From positions 1 to 64,000 of the forward strand of contig NZ_JRHO01000013.1 in assembly GCF_000765475.1 (NCBI RefSeq): a DNA stretch of 64,000 nucleotides. The letters run 5' to 3'. This DNA comes from Methanococcoides methylutens (GTDB taxonomy: Archaea > Halobacteriota > Methanosarcinia > Methanosarcinales > Methanosarcinaceae). The stretch's first letter is position 1; each line of letters starts with the position of its first letter. The notes under the pieces were generated by a model. The model saw only the letters and a program-made list of their open reading frames with translations. It ran no database searches and was not told the origin of the DNA. The position numbers were made by a program, and so were the translations under genes. Below are positions 7,854-46,880 of this stretch, piece after piece.

Positions 7854-8549
7854 TCAATAGTCGTTACTAAGAATATTTGCACTCATTTGTTGCCAAAATA
7901 TTTCTAATAACTTTAAATTGTTCTGACAAAATTCAGATATTTCTTTTGAATCATCATTTTTCAAAGGTACAAATTTTTTTACAACACTTTTATCGATTAC
8001 ATTACCATCTTCATCTTTTTCACCCCTGAAAATAAGATAAGCTTCAATAAAGTCTTGTACTGGTTGATGCTGTATAGTATTTCGAATTTCCTTTATTTCT
8101 TCTATCCACTCAGAATTGTTGAAAATAAAGTTGTGGGAAATAGAGGATTTAGAAGGCGATAATTTTTTTTGGACTTTTGGATTCATATATTGGCCAAAAG
8201 AAAAAGAATGTGAGTCAGAATAACCATCAACAATTCGACACTTTAGATCTATGATACTATTTACAGCTGCCATTATAGAATTAATGAAAGAATAGAATTC
8301 ATAAAGTTCAATTGCATAACCACTCTGAAAGCCAATTGTCACTGGAATCGGTATTTCGCGCCTTTTGGAGCTTTGCATGAATACTCCAAAATTATTTAGA
8401 TCAATACTTGGTTGATTCCCTTCATTTAGTTCCTTTATTAAATTTTTTTGATGATACTTTGCTGCATCGATGAAGAAACGAATTGTAGCAACTTTTTTAT
8501 CAAACGTGTTTTCACTTTCCATCTCTGAAATCTCCAAAGTAGTCTTCAT
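7854..8549 (-). CDS. Unrecognised protein with HEPN-like RNxxxH motif
   Basis: 231 residues, mostly helical in appearance, no signal peptide. Residues around 150 read EIRNTIQHQP, fitting the R-x4-H motif of HEPN ribonuclease-type domains. The rest is not recognised. Two starts are possible: ATG at 8549, or ATG at 8519, which has GGAG 9 bases upstream and is the better supported. Base composition is more AT-rich than the neighbouring metabolic genes. It lies 77 bases downstream of a second unknown gene on the same strand, with gene relics on both sides. HEPN proteins are frequent in toxin-antitoxin and abortive-infection systems; that role here is inference. Confidence 0.6.
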   Translation of the reverse strand: MKTTLEISEMESENTFDKKVATIRFFIDAAKYHQKNLIKELNEGNQPSIDLNNFGVFMQSSKRREIPIPVTIGFQSGYAIELYEFYSFINSIMAAVNSIIDLKCRIVDGYSDSHSFSFGQYMNPKVQKKLSPSKSSISHNFIFNNSEWIEEIKEIRNTIQHQPVQDFIEAYLIFRGEKDEDGNVIDKSVVKKFVPLKNDDSKEISEFCQNNLKLLEIFWQQMSANILSNDY

Positions 8550-8626
8550 TCTTAGAAGTCTGAGTACTAAGCACTAACAAAATATCGATCCTGTCTATTG
8601 GGATCGCGATAACTTATTTTAGATAT

Positions 8627-9604
8627 TCATTTACTCTTTTTTATTCGCTGGTATGGTTCCAATATTTCTTCCTTAGTGAAGATCTCAATATCTTCTTGAC
8701 GAATGGTGGGACCATAACTCATATGGAAAACTCCACCTTGAAATGCAAATGCTTTCTCAAATAATTCTAAATCTGATGGCCAACTAAACTTTACAGTGTC
8801 TGGTTTAATTCCATTTACGATTCTTAAAAATGATAGGATATTTTGAATTGAATATCTTAACAAAATGACTCGCATACCAATGGTATTAGGATCCCAATTG
8901 ACATTATGTTTTTTCAACTTGAAATGATGCTTGCCATGTGGAACACCTTTTTGGCAAATATTTTCTCGCATAAAAAAAGAAGTGCCAAATTCACTTCTTC
9001 CCATTGATTTAAAATCTTCGGGAGGAGGAGATACACCATGTATATTTTCTGTTGCCATAGACAAATGGAATCCTCCCGGTCGAATTCTAAACCCATGCTT
9101 TAAGTTGTTATATTCAGAAACCAGAGTTTCATTTGTGAAGTCGTCAGCTAGTATTCTCCATAATTTAGTAAATTTTGTTTTAACCTTTGTTTCTTTATCC
9201 TTATCCTCAAGTACAAAAGAATTTAATGTATTTGATAAATCTTCCCATGATAACTGTTGTTTTCCAAGTCCTGTCATTATTTCTTTTCCATCACCAATAT
9301 CCTTTACCATTTTTTGCAAACTGCCCGGTGGATATTTTTGTAACCAAGCCACAACACAATTTGAAGCTTGCAAAGTTGCACAAAGCAATGAAAAAAAGGT
9401 TTCCATTGCGTGAAAATATGTTAATCGAATTGAAATAGCTGCAAGATTCTTTTCTTCACTTTCAAGTAATTCAAGGTTATTTTGTACCACATTTTCAAAG
9501 TACTCTGGTTTCATTGATTCAATAAATTCAAGATTTACTTGTGCCAAATCAACGTCCCAAATACAATAAGGTTCATCGTAAACTACAAATTTATAATACT
9601 GCAA
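8627..9604 (-). CDS. Unrecognised protein, partner of the HEPN-like gene
   Basis: 325 residues, soluble. The start is TTG at 9604 with GAGGTGG 6-7 bases upstream. It contains a helix-rich middle with YNNLKHGFR, a pattern resembling HEPN-like unknown families in which the first Arg of R-x4-H is absent. No other motif is recognised. It precedes the HEPN-like gene on the same strand by 77 bases, so the two may be cotranscribed. AT-rich codon use and flanking gene relics suggest acquisition by transfer. Function unknown. Confidence 0.6.
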   Translation of the reverse strand: MQYYKFVVYDEPYCIWDVDLAQVNLEFIESMKPEYFENVVQNNLELLESEEKNLAAISIRLTYFHAMETFFSLLCATLQASNCVVAWLQKYPPGSLQKMVKDIGDGKEIMTGLGKQQLSWEDLSNTLNSFVLEDKDKETKVKTKFTKLWRILADDFTNETLVSEYNNLKHGFRIRPGGFHLSMATENIHGVSPPPEDFKSMGRSEFGTSFFMRENICQKGVPHGKHHFKLKKHNVNWDPNTIGMRVILLRYSIQNILSFLRIVNGIKPDTVKFSWPSDLELFEKAFAFQGGVFHMSYGPTIRQEDIEIFTKEEILEPYQRIKKSK

Positions 9605-41322: not shown

Positions 41323-41345
41323 TCCACCATCACCCCTTTTCTTTT
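41311..41345 (+). terminator. Terminator overlapping the stop of cupin copy 2
   Basis: Perfect 8-bp arms ATGGTGGA (41311-41318) and TCCACCAT (41323-41330) around GTGA, which contains the stop, then CACCCCTTTTCTTTT. Confidence 0.7.
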
Positions 41346-41366
41346 AACACTTTCAAAGGAAGGCAT
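41333..41366 (-). pseudogene. Remnant of a sixth DUF1673-type leader
   Basis: On the minus strand, right after the stop of the 243-residue gene, an ATG (41366) begins MPSFESVKRK, nearly identical in DNA to MVSFESVKRM at 43410. The homology ends within the plus-strand terminator. The stop-start junction also resembles the one at 43411/43410, so a downstream unit was once duplicated and then truncated. Confidence 0.6.
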
Positions 41367-41367
41367 T

Positions 41368-42099
41368 TTACGGTGTCTTCCTGTAATGCTCAATCGCATC
41401 CTGTATTTCGGATGCTGTCACCTCATCAGTTATAAGCGAATAATAAGGGCTCAATTTATACCATTTCTTATTTTTGTATTCGATGTATAATTGTGTATCC
41501 AAATTGTAGTAATCTTTTTTCTGTTTTTGATATGCAAAAAGGGATAATGGCAACAGTGGGACCATTGATATAATTGTTCGCCATTCCCCCAGCATAACCA
41601 TATGTGTGACGAATGCAAAAATTATTAGAAAAGCTATGATTTTCAACATCAGGAGTGTTTTCTTTGAGTGCTGTACAAGCTTGTTGGCAATGATGGAACC
41701 AATCTCACTGTGGTTTAATGTAATTTTTTTAAGCCCGATGGAACTTAAATGCACACCAGAACCATTGACCAAAATACTTGCCTGAAAGCTCCTGGCCACA
41801 AGGAAATAGCATAAAAGATACGTCACTGACAGAATTATCAAATAATTCAAAAGACCAAGACGTGAAGGAAGGCGAAGCAATACACTAAATCCTATCATTA
41901 AGAAAGCAGTGTACAAGTTGCTATTGGTTGGAAAGATTACGTTAGCAGATTGGACCTGTCGAACATTAACTGTTTTACCCAAAGAACTTGCAGACTGGAA
42001 ATCCGGTGAGCAATTTTTTTGCGTTTGTCTAAACTCTATATCTTTCATCGGACACCACCCCATCATTTTCTTAATATTTTCTGCAAAACTATCAATCAT
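41368..42099 (-). CDS. DUF1673-type membrane protein with MGWCP leader (1)
   Basis: 243 residues. The N-terminal leader is FAENIKKMMGWCPMKDIEF; a hydrophilic linker with QSANVIFPTNSNL follows, then two pairs of membrane helices (about 62-105 and 145-190) and a cytosolic-looking tail ending EIQDAIEHYRKTP. The body is close to the 246-residue protein at 43411-44151, whereas the leader and linker (MKDIEFRQTQKNCSPD) are close to the one at 42096. It is therefore a mosaic. Last gene of the operon; its start overlaps the upstream stop by four bases. DUF1673 function is unknown. Confidence 0.75.
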   Translation of the reverse strand: MIDSFAENIKKMMGWCPMKDIEFRQTQKNCSPDFQSASSLGKTVNVRQVQSANVIFPTNSNLYTAFLMIGFSVLLRLPSRLGLLNYLIILSVTYLLCYFLVARSFQASILVNGSGVHLSSIGLKKITLNHSEIGSIIANKLVQHSKKTLLMLKIIAFLIIFAFVTHMVMLGEWRTIISMVPLLPLSLFAYQKQKKDYYNLDTQLYIEYKNKKWYKLSPYYSLITDEVTASEIQDAIEHYRKTP

Positions 42100-42824
42100 T
42101 TCTCCAATATCTCCTTCAGAGTTTGATACTCAATATCATTTCTTGGAAATAGCGTGATGGCCTTATTTTCAGCATGTATCTTAATCGCTTTTGGACAATG
42201 GGATCTCCGATGATTTTTATAAACCATATATATATAAAGAAAATAAGGGAACACAACCATTGTGGTATTTGATCTTATGTCTTCCAATAATAGAGATTTT
42301 GTTGACAAGTTGTATAAGTACCGGGTATGCACAAAAAAGGCCAGTAGCATAACTATAATGAGAACAATATAGAGCGGCTTTTTCCTGTACACGGTATTGT
42401 CAATAGTCTTTACTTCTTTAATCTTCTGTTTTGGAATGTTTATCGGTTTGAACAGAGGTGTTTTTATCATCAGTATTTCGGAACCAATGGAAACCCGGTT
42501 GTGATCGAACAGGAAGAAAAATGCCATCAACATAATGAGAACTAACACAAGGATAAGATGGCCTACCGGTGTTATGGTAAACTGATCGTTAAAAACTAAA
42601 ATCAGAAAAGACAAACTAAGGGTGAGTAAAATCGTTAACTGACGCCAATCTATCATTTGGAGGGGAATATCTTTTTCTTTGATTGATTGGTTATCCATTT
42701 GACTCAAATTCCCATTTTCAGATTTTAAATCCGGTGAGCAGTTGTTTTGAGTCGGTTTAAACTCTATATCTTTCATTGGACACCATCCCATGACTTTACG
42801 TATAGTTTCGATTAAAACAGTCAT
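42096..42824 (-). CDS. DUF1673-type membrane protein with MGWCP leader (2)
   Basis: 242 residues from ATG 42824, chosen because it lies one base after the upstream stop and begins MTVLIETIRKVMGWCPMKD. The linker (IEFKPTQNNCSPD) is shared with protein 1. The membrane part has two helix pairs (about 60-105 and 140-190); the soluble tail ends TLKEILEK. The body differs from proteins 1 and 4. Second to last in the operon. Confidence 0.72.
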   Translation of the reverse strand: MTVLIETIRKVMGWCPMKDIEFKPTQNNCSPDLKSENGNLSQMDNQSIKEKDIPLQMIDWRQLTILLTLSLSFLILVFNDQFTITPVGHLILVLVLIMLMAFFFLFDHNRVSIGSEILMIKTPLFKPINIPKQKIKEVKTIDNTVYRKKPLYIVLIIVMLLAFFVHTRYLYNLSTKSLLLEDIRSNTTMVVFPYFLYIYMVYKNHRRSHCPKAIKIHAENKAITLFPRNDIEYQTLKEILEK

Positions 42825-42825
42825 T

Positions 42826-43410
42826 TTATTCAGTCCTGAGGGTATTGATATCCACAGCAAAAAAGGATATTTTGTGAATGATCAATGTCTTCCCGTTCTT
42901 CTGCTCCCAATAGAGCACTCCGAGGATTTTTATCCAGACAAAGAGCATGGTACCCGATACAAATGCCATTCCTCCGGTAATATTAGTTACCAAAAATACA
43001 ACGAAAGCAATCAGGCTAATAATAACCAGAAATGTTATCGCTTTTTGTTTTCGGGTGGTTTGTGGTTGTACGCTCCCTCTGCAAGCAGCCTTATTAAATC
43101 TGTGCCAGTCATTCATTCCCATGAGAAAATGGAAGAACAAACCACTGATGGCGCCTATGAGGTACATGTCCAGATTAACTTTTCCATACTCATCAAAAGT
43201 AAAAACAGCCAGATACATGAGCAACAGTAATTCCATTAAGACTCTGTTGTGGTATTTATTCCACCACCCGTTATCCCTATGAGTCCTTTTACCTCTGTTA
43301 TTAGGCGTATTTATTGCCAGATTCTCGAATTGTACTGCATTTCGGGCTTCCATGGCACCCACATTTGGACACCATCCCATCATTCTTTTGACACTTTCAA
43401 AGGATACCAT
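42826..43410 (-). CDS. MGWCP-leader membrane protein (3)
   Basis: 194 residues. Leader SFESVKRMMGWCPNVGAME, a linker, then about four helices (from NRVLMELLLLMYLAVF to VTNITGGMAFVSGTMLFVWI). The tail is short. Its start directly follows the TAA of the upstream gene. Body unlike those of the neighbours apart from the helix layout. Function unknown. Confidence 0.7.
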   Translation of the reverse strand: MVSFESVKRMMGWCPNVGAMEARNAVQFENLAINTPNNRGKRTHRDNGWWNKYHNRVLMELLLLMYLAVFTFDEYGKVNLDMYLIGAISGLFFHFLMGMNDWHRFNKAACRGSVQPQTTRKQKAITFLVIISLIAFVVFLVTNITGGMAFVSGTMLFVWIKILGVLYWEQKNGKTLIIHKISFFAVDINTLRTE

Positions 43411-44151
43411 TTACTGTGTCCTCCTATAATGTTCAATAGCATTCTGTATTTTAGATGCTGTCATCTCGTCTGTCATAATTGAATAATCAGAAGTAAGTTC
43501 ATACCATCTTGTATACCGATTTTTGTTTTCATATTTGATGGATAATTGTGTATCTATGTCGTGATATTTCCCATTCAATTTATGTTTTACAAGTAAATAT
43601 CCGGGCACTAATGAGGCAATTGATATGATCATTTGCCACTCACCGCGTATCGTTGCTGAATAAACAGCCAATGAAACAAGAGCTGATAGTGGTATTGCCA
43701 GTAGTAGAATGATCAGAACTGTAGATCTAATACGCTTATTTGCTCTGACTGATCTTATTTCGTTGTACTTTAATGTAATATGCTTCAGCTCAAAAGATTG
43801 TAAATGAATCCCACTTTCATCAATTAATACGTTTGATTGAAGAAATTTTGTTACAAGGAAGTAATATATGAAATACATTGCAACGATGGTAGGAATCAGG
43901 ATTGTAGAACTCTCACCCCTGACTAAAAACAGAACCGCATTTAAAACTGATACAACGATAATGAAAAACAGGGAAGTATTTGCAGGGAACATCACGTTTT
44001 CAGATTGAACAAGTTCAATATTTGATCTTCTGGAAGGTTCGAGTGAAGTGTTTACAAAATCAAGATCCTGATTTGATCTCAATTTCATTGAAGGTGTATT
44101 CGGGCACCATCCCATGACTTTCCGTATAGTTTCTGCCACATTTATTGTCAT
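43411..44151 (-). CDS. DUF1673-type membrane protein with MGWCP leader (4)
   Basis: 246 residues. Leader VAETIRKVMGWCPNTPSMK; linker with VQSENVMFPANTSL; helix pairs at about 60-105 and 150-195; tail with STWYELTSDYSIMTDEMT-like sequence ending IQNAIEHYRRTQ. The archetype of the body shared with protein 1. It lies 33 bases after the stop of the leader-PLDc_N gene. Confidence 0.75.
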   Translation of the reverse strand: MTINVAETIRKVMGWCPNTPSMKLRSNQDLDFVNTSLEPSRRSNIELVQSENVMFPANTSLFFIIVVSVLNAVLFLVRGESSTILIPTIVAMYFIYYFLVTKFLQSNVLIDESGIHLQSFELKHITLKYNEIRSVRANKRIRSTVLIILLLAIPLSALVSLAVYSATIRGEWQMIISIASLVPGYLLVKHKLNGKYHDIDTQLSIKYENKNRYTRWYELTSDYSIMTDEMTASKIQNAIEHYRRTQ

Positions 44152-44184
44152 ACCAAATCCTCAACTTCTCAAACTGTTCCTCTG

Positions 44185-44604
44185 TCAGTTTTGTAGGTTC
44201 GTCTTGTTTTCCTGAATCTTTACCAGATAGTAATACAACACTGCACCTATGAAATTCAGGATTATCAGGACAGCCGACCAGATCAATTTATCATATTCGC
44301 CTTTACCGGGAAAACGATCTGTGCTTCTTTGCAGACAGTCGGCTAACATGAAAAACCAAAAAACAAGGGCCATTGCAATGATTCCCCATAATAGCTGACC
44401 GATGTGAAATGTGAATACGAATATCGCGAAAAATACTATAAGTCCAACGATTGTCCATTCTGAATTTCTTTTATTCACCTTTCCTGATGGTTTCAGTGAA
44501 GTGTTTGCAAAATCAATCTGCTGAGATGATTTTAATCTCCCCATATTTGCATTGGGACACCATCCCATGATTCTCCGTATCGTTTCTGCCACATTTATTG
44601 TCAT
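44185..44604 (-). CDS. MGWCP leader fused to PLDc_N-like membrane domain (5)
   Basis: 139 residues. Residues 1-44 are the leader (VAETIRRIMGWCPNANMGRL) and a linker with DFANTSLKPS; residues 45-139 are three hydrophobic segments with FHIGQLLWGIIAMALVFWFFML and DYDKLIWSAVLIILNFIGAVLYY-like sequence (shortened), the pattern of PLDc_N-type small membrane proteins. The same membrane domain without leader is encoded divergently at 45306-45596. First structural gene after the regulator, with an ATGA start-stop overlap (44601-44604). Confidence 0.75.
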   Translation of the reverse strand: MTINVAETIRRIMGWCPNANMGRLKSSQQIDFANTSLKPSGKVNKRNSEWTIVGLIVFFAIFVFTFHIGQLLWGIIAMALVFWFFMLADCLQRSTDRFPGKGEYDKLIWSAVLIILNFIGAVLYYYLVKIQENKTNLQN

Positions 44605-45047
44605 ACTAACTCCCTCAACTTCTCAAACAGTTCCTCTGCCAGTTTTGTTGGATCGTCCGTTTGTTCGAGCTTGATCTTCATCTCATCTGCAAAATCCCAG
44701 AGCAATTCCATGCACTCCTTGTACCTGCTGCATTCATTGCAATCTCCCTCGTGCTCATACCACACCTGAACACCATATTTTTCAGACACAAAGATCAAGG
44801 CATCAACATTCAGGGGAATTGACTGACCGAACAATATTCCTCTTTCAATGTTCATACTCTCCACATGAATCTGGTTTGATCTCGCCATCTCAAGCAATAT
44901 ATTTTCAACACGTTTGTCCATGCCAATAAGTGCCCTGGATACTGCCTGTCTGGATATGTTGAATGAGTGTGCGATATTGATGTTGCGGGATCCACTCCTT
45001 CGCAGTTTCCAGAACTCGAACTGTTTATCTCCTGTTGGAAGGAACAT
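44601..45047 (-). CDS. Helix-turn-helix regulator heading the MGWCP operon
   Basis: 148 residues. An HTH is seen at about residues 20-42 (NINIAHSFNISRQAVSRAL). A helical segment follows, then residues around 95-110 carry CNECSRYKEC, a possible metal site. Four-base overlap with the next gene shows coupling. There is no Shine-Dalgarno sequence. A TATA box (TATTTATAG, 45069-45077 minus strand) lies about 26 bases before the ATG, so a leaderless mRNA is likely. The start codon lies inside a pair of ACATATGT palindromes, suggesting autoregulation. Confidence 0.75.
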   Translation of the reverse strand: MFLPTGDKQFEFWKLRRSGSRNINIAHSFNISRQAVSRALIGMDKRVENILLEMARSNQIHVESMNIERGILFGQSIPLNVDALIFVSEKYGVQVWYEHEGDCNECSRYKECMELLWDFADEMKIKLEQTDDPTKLAEELFEKLRELV

Positions 45048-45061
45048 ATGTCAACATATGT
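45044..45061 (-). promoter_or_regulatory. Twin ACATATGT palindromes at the regulator start
   Basis: ACATATGT occurs at 45044-45051 and 45054-45061, 10 bp apart, so both face the same side of the helix. They overlap the regulator's start codon and the expected transcription start set by the TATA box at 45069-45077. A likely operator for the HTH protein. Confidence 0.55.
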
Positions 45062-45305
45062 ATGTTTACTATAAATACATTGCTAATTTATTTTGCTATT
45101 ATACAAAACAAATCGTCAAATGTATAATTAATTTCATCTCATGCAACTATTAATGTATGTCTCTAATAATCAAAAATCCCATTAAACTTAATAATTTGAT
45201 GAAATGGACATAAAATTATTATAATGAAATGCTCTGCTATAAAGTAAAGACGTTTAAAATGAATAAATGATGAAATTGAATATAATCAGAAGGGAAGGCA
45301 TGCAA

Positions 45306-45596
45306 ATGAGCAAAAGTGATTCAGAATGGATGCTTGCCGGACTTATTGTATTCTTTGCGATAATTGTTTTTGCATATCACATAGGCCAACCGTTATGGGG
45401 AATCATCTTAATAGCCCTTGTTTTCTGGATATTCATGTTGGTCGACTGTATACAAAGGAGCATAGATCGTTTTCCTGGCAAAGGTGATTATGATAAACTT
45501 ATCTGGTCGGCTGCCTTAATTTTTCTGAATTTTATAGGTGCGATCTTGTATTACTATCTGGTCAGGAAGCAGGATATCATTGGAGAAATATCATGA
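45306..45596 (+). CDS. PLDc_N-like small membrane protein
   Basis: 96 residues from ATG 45306 (MSKSDSEWMLAG), preceded by AAGGGAAGG; in-frame ATGs at 45300 and 45267 are alternatives. Three hydrophobic segments, with HIGQPLWGII, FMLVDCIQRS, and RFPGKGDYDKLIWSA. It is the leaderless counterpart of residues 45-139 of the protein at 44185-44604. Divergent from the MGWCP operon and first of three overlapping genes. Confidence 0.75.
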   Translation: MSKSDSEWMLAGLIVFFAIIVFAYHIGQPLWGIILIALVFWIFMLVDCIQRSIDRFPGKGDYDKLIWSAALIFLNFIGAILYYYLVRKQDIIGEIS

Positions 45597-45967
45597 GCAA
45601 GGAAACTGCAATAATATTGGGGGCAAGTGGAGGAATCTTCGGAGTTGCTGCTTCTGCAATTGCATTTTTGGTTGCAGCGTACAATTTCGGATTTGGAAGC
45701 AGGATAATAGACTATGCTCCCAGTCAGGTTTTTGGAATTGCAAACTTTATAGTCTTGGGTTTAGGTCTCATAGCACTGGCATTGAGCATGATTGGAATTG
45801 CAGGCTCGGTTGTTGCTAGAACGGAAAAGAAGAAAGGTGCTAAATTAATGCTGGCATCAGGTATATTTGGTTTCTTCCTGCTCTTTGCATTGTGGATCAT
45901 CCCGGGAATACTGCTAACTGCCGGTGGAATTATAGCAATGAGGGATATCGGGGAAGAAATGTCATGA
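45593..45967 (+). CDS. DUF4064-like membrane protein 1
   Basis: 124 residues, four membrane helices. ILGASGGIFGVAASAIAFL at the start, then LGLGLIALALSMIGIAGSVVA, and a C-terminal WIIPGILLTAGGIIAM. The GGIFG and final IPGxLLTxGGI patterns resemble DUF4064-type proteins of Gram-positives and archaea. Start and upstream stop overlap (ATGA), as do its stop and the next start. Function unknown. Confidence 0.7.
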   Translation: MSKETAIILGASGGIFGVAASAIAFLVAAYNFGFGSRIIDYAPSQVFGIANFIVLGLGLIALALSMIGIAGSVVARTEKKKGAKLMLASGIFGFFLLFALWIIPGILLTAGGIIAMRDIGEEMS

Positions 45968-46284
45968 GCATAAAGGTTGAAACCGCGTTGGGATTTGTTG
46001 GAGGATCCTTAGGAGTAATCACATCATTGGTCATATTCTACGACACGATGTTCGCACTGTCTGATTCTTTGCTGGCAATGGTATTTTTTGGGCTGGTTTC
46101 ACTGGTAGTGGGTTTGGTAGGAATTGCCGGAGGAAATATTGCCAGAACTGACATGAAAAAAGGAGGGAAATTAATGCTTGTATCCGGCATAATCGGATTT
46201 GGCCTATTCTTCTGGATGTGGTGGATAATTCCCGGAGCTTTACTTACAGTTGGCGGAGTTCTTGCAATATGGGATGAAAATTAA
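45964..46284 (+). CDS. DUF4064-like membrane protein 2
   Basis: 106 residues, four helices, paralogue of the upstream protein: ALGFVGGSLGVITSL, GLVGIAGGNIARTDMKKGGKLML, and WWIIPGALLTVGGVLAI (shortened). The ATG at 45964 overlaps the previous stop. Third and last gene of the divergent membrane-protein operon. Confidence 0.7.
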   Translation: MSIKVETALGFVGGSLGVITSLVIFYDTMFALSDSLLAMVFFGLVSLVVGLVGIAGGNIARTDMKKGGKLMLVSGIIGFGLFFWMWWIIPGALLTVGGVLAIWDEN

Positions 46285-46358: not shown

Positions 46359-46880
46359 TTATAATGCCATTTCCTCTAGAGCACGGGAATAGCTCTCAAA
46401 AGCTCTTTCATTAAAACAAACTAAAAGAACCTTCTCGATAGAACTACCTTTTCCAAGAAAACCAGCGATCTCAGCTAACGCGATTCTGGAAGCCCTATCT
46501 ACAGGGAATCCGTAAGCACCTGTGCTTATTGATGGAAAGGCGATAGTTCTCACACTATTCCTTACCGCTACTTTCAGGCTGTTGCGATAGCATCGAGCCA
46601 GCATTTCATCTTCCCCGGAAGTTCCTCCCCTCCATATCGGACCGACGGTGTGTATCACCCACTTTGCAGGAAGATGATAACCGGAGGTGATCTTTGCCTC
46701 TCCTGTTGGACAGCCCTTCAGGCTCCTGCATTCCTCAAGAAGCTCAGGTCCCGCTGCAGCATGGATAGCACCATCCACTCCGCCACCTCCCAGAAGGGAA
46801 TTATTAGCAGCATTTACGATGGCATCAACATCCAGTTCTACAATATCACCTTTGATCACAACAACCCTGTCAGACAGCAT
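46359..46880 (-). CDS. Macro-domain protein (ADP-ribose deacetylase type)
   Basis: 173 residues, one macro domain. [22 protein letters not shown] is the ADP-ribose-binding and catalytic loop of the MacroD/YmdB group; VIHTVGPIW and [13 protein letters not shown] follow. Members remove ADP-ribose from proteins or hydrolyse O-acetyl-ADP-ribose. It stands alone, convergent with the membrane-protein operon. Confidence 0.9.

Follow-up and report, generated by a model that had tools for sequence, protein, structure and literature searches.

Portable cytoplasmic domains that sit on membrane proteins and hold an adjacent regulator are familiar from anti-sigma factors and from membrane-bound antirepressor pairs. 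The system described here differs from these in having neither a sigma factor nor the zinc-binding anti-sigma motif, and its promoter is an archaeal TATA promoter.

In the HAAS-PadR systems a helical module is found on the N-terminus of varied multi-TM domains, always beside a stand-alone HTH gene, and kinase-free signalling from membrane to promoter has been proposed (PMC11237479). The stretch of DNA analysed here (64,000 nucleotides, hereafter the window) likewise pairs an adjacent HTH gene with diverse membrane payloads, but its portable part is a GWCP tag of about 15-18 residues and not a three-helix domain, and it is accompanied by a fixed operator-like repeat and a gene overlap. The leader proteins scanned with Pfam gave no match to HAAS, DUF1700 or DUF1129, and the HTH protein (P0007) gave no match to PadR in Pfam or NCBIfam. 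By analogy, the module would work like HAAS-PadR without being a member of it.

The HTH protein itself bears its best, but weak, likeness to EnfR (Tfx; PDB 8hno, 8hnp), with which it seems to share an N-terminal HTH, a long third helix and an alpha+beta head. The fold of the HTH protein is predicted with confidence (about half of the modelled residues at pLDDT > 90, AlphaFold2), and in a comparison for the eighth-note fold 8hno/8hnp were its best Foldseek matches at weak scores (E 0.07-0.21, probability <= 0.91, TM-score <= 0.36); the corresponding NCBIfam models were far below their cut-offs (TIGR00721, 15.2 vs 60.25 bits; EnfR, 12.9 vs 260). The two differ in an invariant site of one His and three Cys, which belongs to the window HTH protein. 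EnfR is described as having no effector domain, an antirepressor is suggested by its authors, and the text consulted mentions no tagged membrane partner for it (PMC10570040).

The membrane proteins belong by their N-terminal tag to DUF1673 (PF07895, arCOG06827), whose MGWCP motif and expansion in Methanosarcina have received a one-line mention (PMC4158269), as has its place in supercluster SC.00027 (PMC4390880). The membrane nature and the expansion of the family are already on record, but these mentions do not touch on a partner gene of the HTH kind, an operator, a gene overlap of 4 nt, payloads of unrelated families or an exchange of payloads at the motif. Searching full texts for MGWCP, with most subscription literature outside the scope, returned no further paper, and within the literature searched the HTH partnership, the operator, payload swapping across families and exchange at the motif were not found. 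DUF1673 has long been listed as unexplained "dark matter" expanded in Methanosarcina; with an HTH partner, a fixed operator and payload swapping it becomes a regulatory system that can be tested in methanogens amenable to genetics.

Organisation of the gene cluster

The minus strand of the window carries the HTH gene followed by five membrane-protein genes, each with a leader ending in MGWCP, and all five leader matches of this genome (G000) sit in this single cluster. GWCP lies near the N-terminus in 5/5 of them. The first is a fusion of the leader with a PLDc_N membrane domain, and the HTH gene separates it from a divergent, leaderless PLDc_N gene. The features are the following.

41339..41367, minus strand: remnant of a leader-gene start, 87% identity over 30 nt to 43383-43412, past the last gene of the cluster
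41368..42099, minus strand: chimera of leader and cluster-2 payload with the linker seen in the adjacent cluster-1 gene
42096..42824, minus strand: leader with a multi-TM payload (cluster 1); ATG at 42824
42826..43410, minus strand: leader with the classic DUF1673 payload (cluster 0)
43411..44151, minus strand: leader with a multi-TM payload, PH-like by eye (cluster 2)
44152..44203, minus strand: scar, an out-of-frame 3'-end remnant of a second HTH gene, 91% identity over 45 nt to 44613-44657, before the next leader gene
44185..44604, minus strand: leader and PLDc_N fusion protein, 139 aa, the first membrane gene after the HTH gene
44185..44478, minus strand: captured PLDc_N ORF within the fusion gene, from the DNA alignment of slot 1
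44482..44604, minus strand: leader and linker (MTINVAETIRRIMGWCPN...SLKPSG), common to the slot-1 genes of G094/G095, which have another payload
44601..45047, minus strand: HTH regulator of 148 aa that contains the invariant site H-x3-C-x2-C-x5-C; its stop overlaps the ATG of the leader gene by 4 nt
45050..45069, unstranded: operator-like inverted repeat GT[CA]AAC-N8-GTT[GT]AC, positions -22 to -3 relative to the start codon of the HTH gene
45070..45077, minus strand: TATA box of the HTH operon, abutting the operator-like repeat
45267..45596, plus strand: leaderless PLDc_N membrane protein, start possibly at 45306 (internal ATG), divergent from the HTH operon
45593..45967, plus strand: DUF4064-like membrane protein, below the Pfam cut-off; overlaps the 3' end of the leaderless PLDc_N gene
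45964..46284, plus strand: second DUF4064-like protein (weak)
46359-46880, minus strand: macrodomain-like (ADP-ribose-binding) gene by sequence, adjoining the cluster

An earlier note on this DNA had claimed that the products of 44185-44604 and 45306-45596 match and had called for a pairwise alignment of the two. The positions of the reading frames and both kinds of comparison bear this out: residues 34-132 of the fusion align with residues 5-103 of the leaderless protein at 67/99 identities and 0 gaps (BLASTP, E = 3e-51), the membrane domain alone is 72-73% identical, and PLDc_N (PF13396, cut-off 23.3 bits) is above cut-off in both (fusion P0001, 29.6 bits; leaderless P0002, 34.7 bits). The fusion product also passes DUF1673 (PF07895, cut-off 30.4 bits) at 34.3 bits, and no other Pfam family was above cut-off in either protein. 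Both stop after the PLDc_N membrane segment, and the catalytic HKD domain of phospholipase D is absent from the Pfam results. The remaining leader proteins of the window scored 32.2 (P0003), 98.4 (P0004), 51.5 (P0005) and 20.0 bits (P0006, below cut-off) with DUF1673. The leader of the earlier note corresponds to the conserved N-terminal part of DUF1673 and is linked to the HTH gene.

The remnants at 44152-44203 and 41339-41367 are scars of earlier duplications.

The HTH partner and its promoter

In the order as a whole (186 genomes) the HTH gene was found in 87 genomes and the leader in 88, with both present in 86, one only in 3 and neither in 97 (Fisher p about 1e-49, phylogeny ignored). The genus of the window shows the same pattern, five genomes having both and six neither. 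The two are also linked in position, since a leader gene lies <= 1.3 kb downstream of 51/53 complete HTH genes and the HTH stop and leader start overlap by exactly 4 nt at 32/53 loci. Methanoculleus, Methanoregula, Methanospirillum and an Archaeoglobales MAG have the two genes paired in the same way. The number of leader proteins per single HTH gene rises to about 16, which is also compatible with simple co-regulation, and there are leader genes on contigs where no HTH gene is present; the f4 genomes and G006 have a single tagged protein, its gene still overlapping the HTH gene. No relative of the HTH protein was found in plasmids, phages or viral contigs, and six proteins searched with PADLOC gave no match to anti-phage defence.

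The HTH protein contains an invariant W-Y-x-H-x-G-x-C-x2-C-x5-C segment, which is probably a metal site. A metal site formed between proteins through the Cys of the tag was also considered and set aside as unneeded, the HTH protein having its own invariant set of one His and three Cys.

The pattern GT[CA]AA[CT]-N8-[AG]TT[GT]AC, or a close variant, is present at -22 to -3 in 63 HTH promoters (a 64th row, L113, was left out as a false start pick), with the TATA box at -30 to -23 directly before it and with half-sites that are near-invariant over several orders, from Methanococcoides to Methanoregula. In 0.78 Mb of gene neighbourhoods, 55/60 sites of the repeat were at HTH starts. The window has one site, 45050-45069, and a scan of its own genome gave three sites, a number equal to that of the reversed-pattern control, with the HTH promoter as the only convincing one. 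A position between TATA box and start codon would be a place for an archaeal repressor to act, and the HTH start codon is probably close to the start of the transcript. The repeat is likely to be an autoregulatory operator, and we find it quite probable, from this promoter arrangement, that the HTH protein regulates its own gene.

Capture of the PLDc_N reading frame

The DNA of slot 1, the first gene after the HTH gene, was aligned from five genomes (G000, which is that of the window, and G091, G094, G095 and G098). In slot 1 of G094/G095 a 2-TM payload comes after the same leader and linker (…SSQQIDF.NTSLKPSG), and 3' of this payload are a remnant of the 3'-end of an HTH gene and then the next leader gene. 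G098 has a 307-bp segment inserted between the linker and the 2-TM payload; it starts exactly at the PLDc_N ATG, ends 20 nt beyond the stop codon and is bordered by AATA on each side, where the empty site has AATA once, and the old 2-TM payload persists downstream as an open, now leaderless ORF. The window has the same insertion as G098 with the old 2-TM payload deleted, the junction being within the HTH remnant, and slot 1 of G091 is without insert and without 2-TM payload. The empty (G094/G095), filled (G098) and payload-deleted (G000) states therefore show that the PLDc_N fusion is a derived state, which arose when a complete ORF was captured behind a leader already in place. The fusion is not an assembly artefact, because the independent genome G098 has the same one. 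The window and its sister genomes thus show payload capture in its empty, intermediate and final states, a clear case of modular protein evolution, and we regard a portable header with payload capture as practically certain.

The insert, in L105 of G098 around 8460-8800, is ORF-sized.

The earlier note had proposed that the leader was grafted onto an independent small membrane protein. The joining of the two is upheld by the empty and filled sites in G094/G095, G098 and G000 and by the PLDc_N relatives, 27/29 of which are leaderless; the direction must be amended, as the PLDc_N gene moved behind a resident leader and the leader itself did not move.

The fusion was found only in G000 and G098. 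The leaderless divergent PLDc_N gene is present in G094/G095 while their slot 1 holds another payload, and leaderless relatives occur throughout the order, including G090, G093, G097 and G099, which are without HTH or leader. A tree of 29 PLDc_N domains (92 columns), the phylogeny for which the earlier note had called, has 27 leaderless rows and does not single out a donor of the insert. A clade (100/97) unites the divergent copies of G000, G094 and G098 and leaves the fusion copies outside, and a grouping of the two fusion copies together was not rejected (p-AU 0.19), and because of these two results the source of the insert may have been a paralogue rather than today's divergent neighbour.

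Payloads of the tag and exchange at the motif

The leader, the N-terminus of DUF1673 with its invariant GWCP (tag peptide VAETIRKVMGWCPN), was found in 184 genes from 60 regions, which fell into 19 payload clusters, some of them maybe distant relatives or fragments. From genome to genome, at least 8 kinds of payload occur in the one slot overlapping the HTH stop. Besides PLDc_N, tagged payloads above the Pfam cut-off were Yip1 (59.8 and 71.0 bits, cut-off 28.6) and Polysacc_synt_3 (74.4 bits, cut-off 23), and a tagged tail resembling the AglB/STT3 core was just under its cut-off (20.3 vs 23). The search for further families that the earlier note had recommended was in this way successful, and its view of the leader as a portable module is supported by the same leader on Yip1, on a polysaccharide flippase and on other payloads. 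The tag is also present on proteins below the PF07895 cut-off and in Methanomicrobiales and Archaeoglobales.

G, W, C and P do not vary in alignment A1, nor do they in a set of 185 distinct leader DNA segments, for the selection of which the motif had also served; alignment A1 and the profile search agree. The codons of GWCP vary freely, with all four Gly, all four Pro and both Cys codons in use, and selection therefore acts on the protein. The motif is broken in some first genes after the HTH gene (MSWCP, GWFP and GRCP in L216, L227 and L237). A cytoplasmic location of the tag is supported, but not shown, by positive-inside counts, in which a crude predictor placed the N-terminus in the cytoplasm in 126 vs 44 cases. 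The products of L112 and L114 carry the GWCP tag twice, at the N-terminus and again between two membrane halves.

Comparison of leader genes gave 105 pairs with >= 80% identity in the 90 nt 5' of MGWCP and < 45% in the 90 nt 3' of it (in one example, 99% vs 28%), and 78 pairs with the reverse pattern. The best change point was 0 to +45 nt from the M codon in 104/105 of the former and -30 to +15 nt in 78/78 of the latter, where the pairs are non-independent events and the invariant 15 nt prevent a finer placement of the joint. These patterns are consistent with exchange of payloads at the MGWCP codons, the 5' part staying with the gene in front. Window gene 41368 is a chimera in its linker. HTH-gene remnants stand before leader genes in G000, G094, G095, G098 and G071, which suggests that whole HTH-leader units were also duplicated and that the second HTH gene then decayed; G047 retains two complete units. 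In L134 of G071 (7941-8200) an HTH gene with residues about 53-118 deleted, apparently from a decaying second unit, still stands before a leader gene.

Proposed mechanism and alternative explanations

We regard the window as containing one copy of a two-part archaeal module, made up of a small HTH regulator and membrane proteins with an N-terminal tag ending in GWCP. The HTH protein would repress its own operon by predicted binding to the inverted repeat that lies after the TATA box and ahead of the start codon, and the membrane proteins would hold or release the HTH protein through their presumably cytoplasmic tag. Each payload would then be a membrane sensor or effector feeding back on the same promoter, and translational coupling through the 4-nt overlap would keep the HTH protein and the tagged protein in step. 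Through the PLDc_N fusion, a further membrane domain that is already present, leaderless, next door would come under this control. Taken whole, with portable tag, autoregulated repressor and membrane docking, we give this explanation a somewhat better than even chance, and we put the odds at even that the tag docks directly onto the HTH protein. More tentatively, and at rather less than even chances, the HTH gene and GWCP tag may form an undescribed membrane-to-promoter switch across several Halobacteriota orders, with an autoregulated repressor, interchangeable payloads and a common docking tag whose codons double as exchange joint. If so, a new membrane protein could be placed under control in one recombination step.

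Natural in-frame HTH-leader read-throughs from G158, G162, G166 and G078 were used as AlphaFold2 inputs. In two models (G162 and G078, which have different linkers) M/L-G-W-C was placed as a strand at low confidence (pLDDT 50-70), and GWCPN was the sole stretch of linker and leader at pLDDT >= 50; the partner of the strand was not seen. This placement gives a hint, and only a hint, in favour of docking between HTH protein and tag.

The main rival to this switch is an assembly or sorting tag, by which the tagged proteins would form complexes with each other or with another partner via GWCP while the HTH protein merely regulates the operon. It fits the presence of many tagged proteins but one HTH gene per genome, the tandem operons of tagged proteins and the two tags on the L112 and L114 products. 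However, in the f4 genomes and G006, which have a single tagged protein, assembly would have to be homotypic, tag and HTH gene are jointly present or absent in all but 3/186 genomes, and the remote flippase locus described below brings a second HTH copy with it. We consider the assembly tag unlikely, though a serious contender.

The other alternatives concern the origin of the shared segment. DNA processes alone (tandem duplication, translational coupling and a recombination joint) might keep it, the peptide being functionless, and the duplicated blocks do take in the 3' end of the HTH gene and the exchanges do map onto the MGWCP codons; yet GWCP persists, order-wide and beyond, with every Gly codon, every Pro codon and both Cys codons in use, which contradicts a functionless peptide, and we hold this alternative to be very improbable. 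A role of the motif at the DNA level can nevertheless hold in addition to a function of the peptide. A single full-length ancestor of all DUF1673-type proteins, whose payloads merely diverged with no module moved, would agree with a PF07895 model that spans the whole length and with the above-cut-off scores of most window members. Against it, the payloads PLDc_N, Yip1 and flippase each fall into a Pfam family of their own, PLDc_N and flippase have close leaderless relatives, the 105 gene pairs lose their similarity 3' of MGWCP, and the PLDc_N insertion, visible as empty vs filled sites, contradicts it; we hold it to be very improbable. That the divergent leaderless PLDc_N gene once carried a leader and lost it, the scenario that the earlier note had named as contrary to its own, is rejected as hardly credible. 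Leader loss does occur, as the leaderless 2-TM ORF of G098 illustrates, but the leaderless relatives, 27/29 in the tree, are spread over the order and include genomes without HTH or leader, and the fusion is confined to G000 and G098 while G094/G095 pair the leaderless divergent gene with another slot-1 payload.

Tagged and leaderless genes at other loci

The flippase family was present in 31/31 Methanosarcina genomes searched, and 18 of the 20 copies inspected were leaderless, the two with the leader being from G150 and G152. Many of the leaderless flippases start at about residue 54 of the fusion, which is the end of the linker. Both flippase fusions have a second HTH copy 304-340 nt upstream, and their neighbourhood (L126/L127, from G152/G150) comprises the HTH copy, the tagged flippase and an ABC-transporter-like gene (600 aa) preceded by an operator-like repeat of its own. 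This locus gives a hint of cell-surface glycan export.

The sites of the repeat away from HTH starts precede the ABC-transporter-like gene near this locus and a leaderless Yip1-like gene of G069. In the latter genome (L152, 4000-5936) a tagged Yip1 gene is followed by the leaderless Yip1-like gene with its own operator-like repeat, and the two may be members of one regulon with and without the tag.
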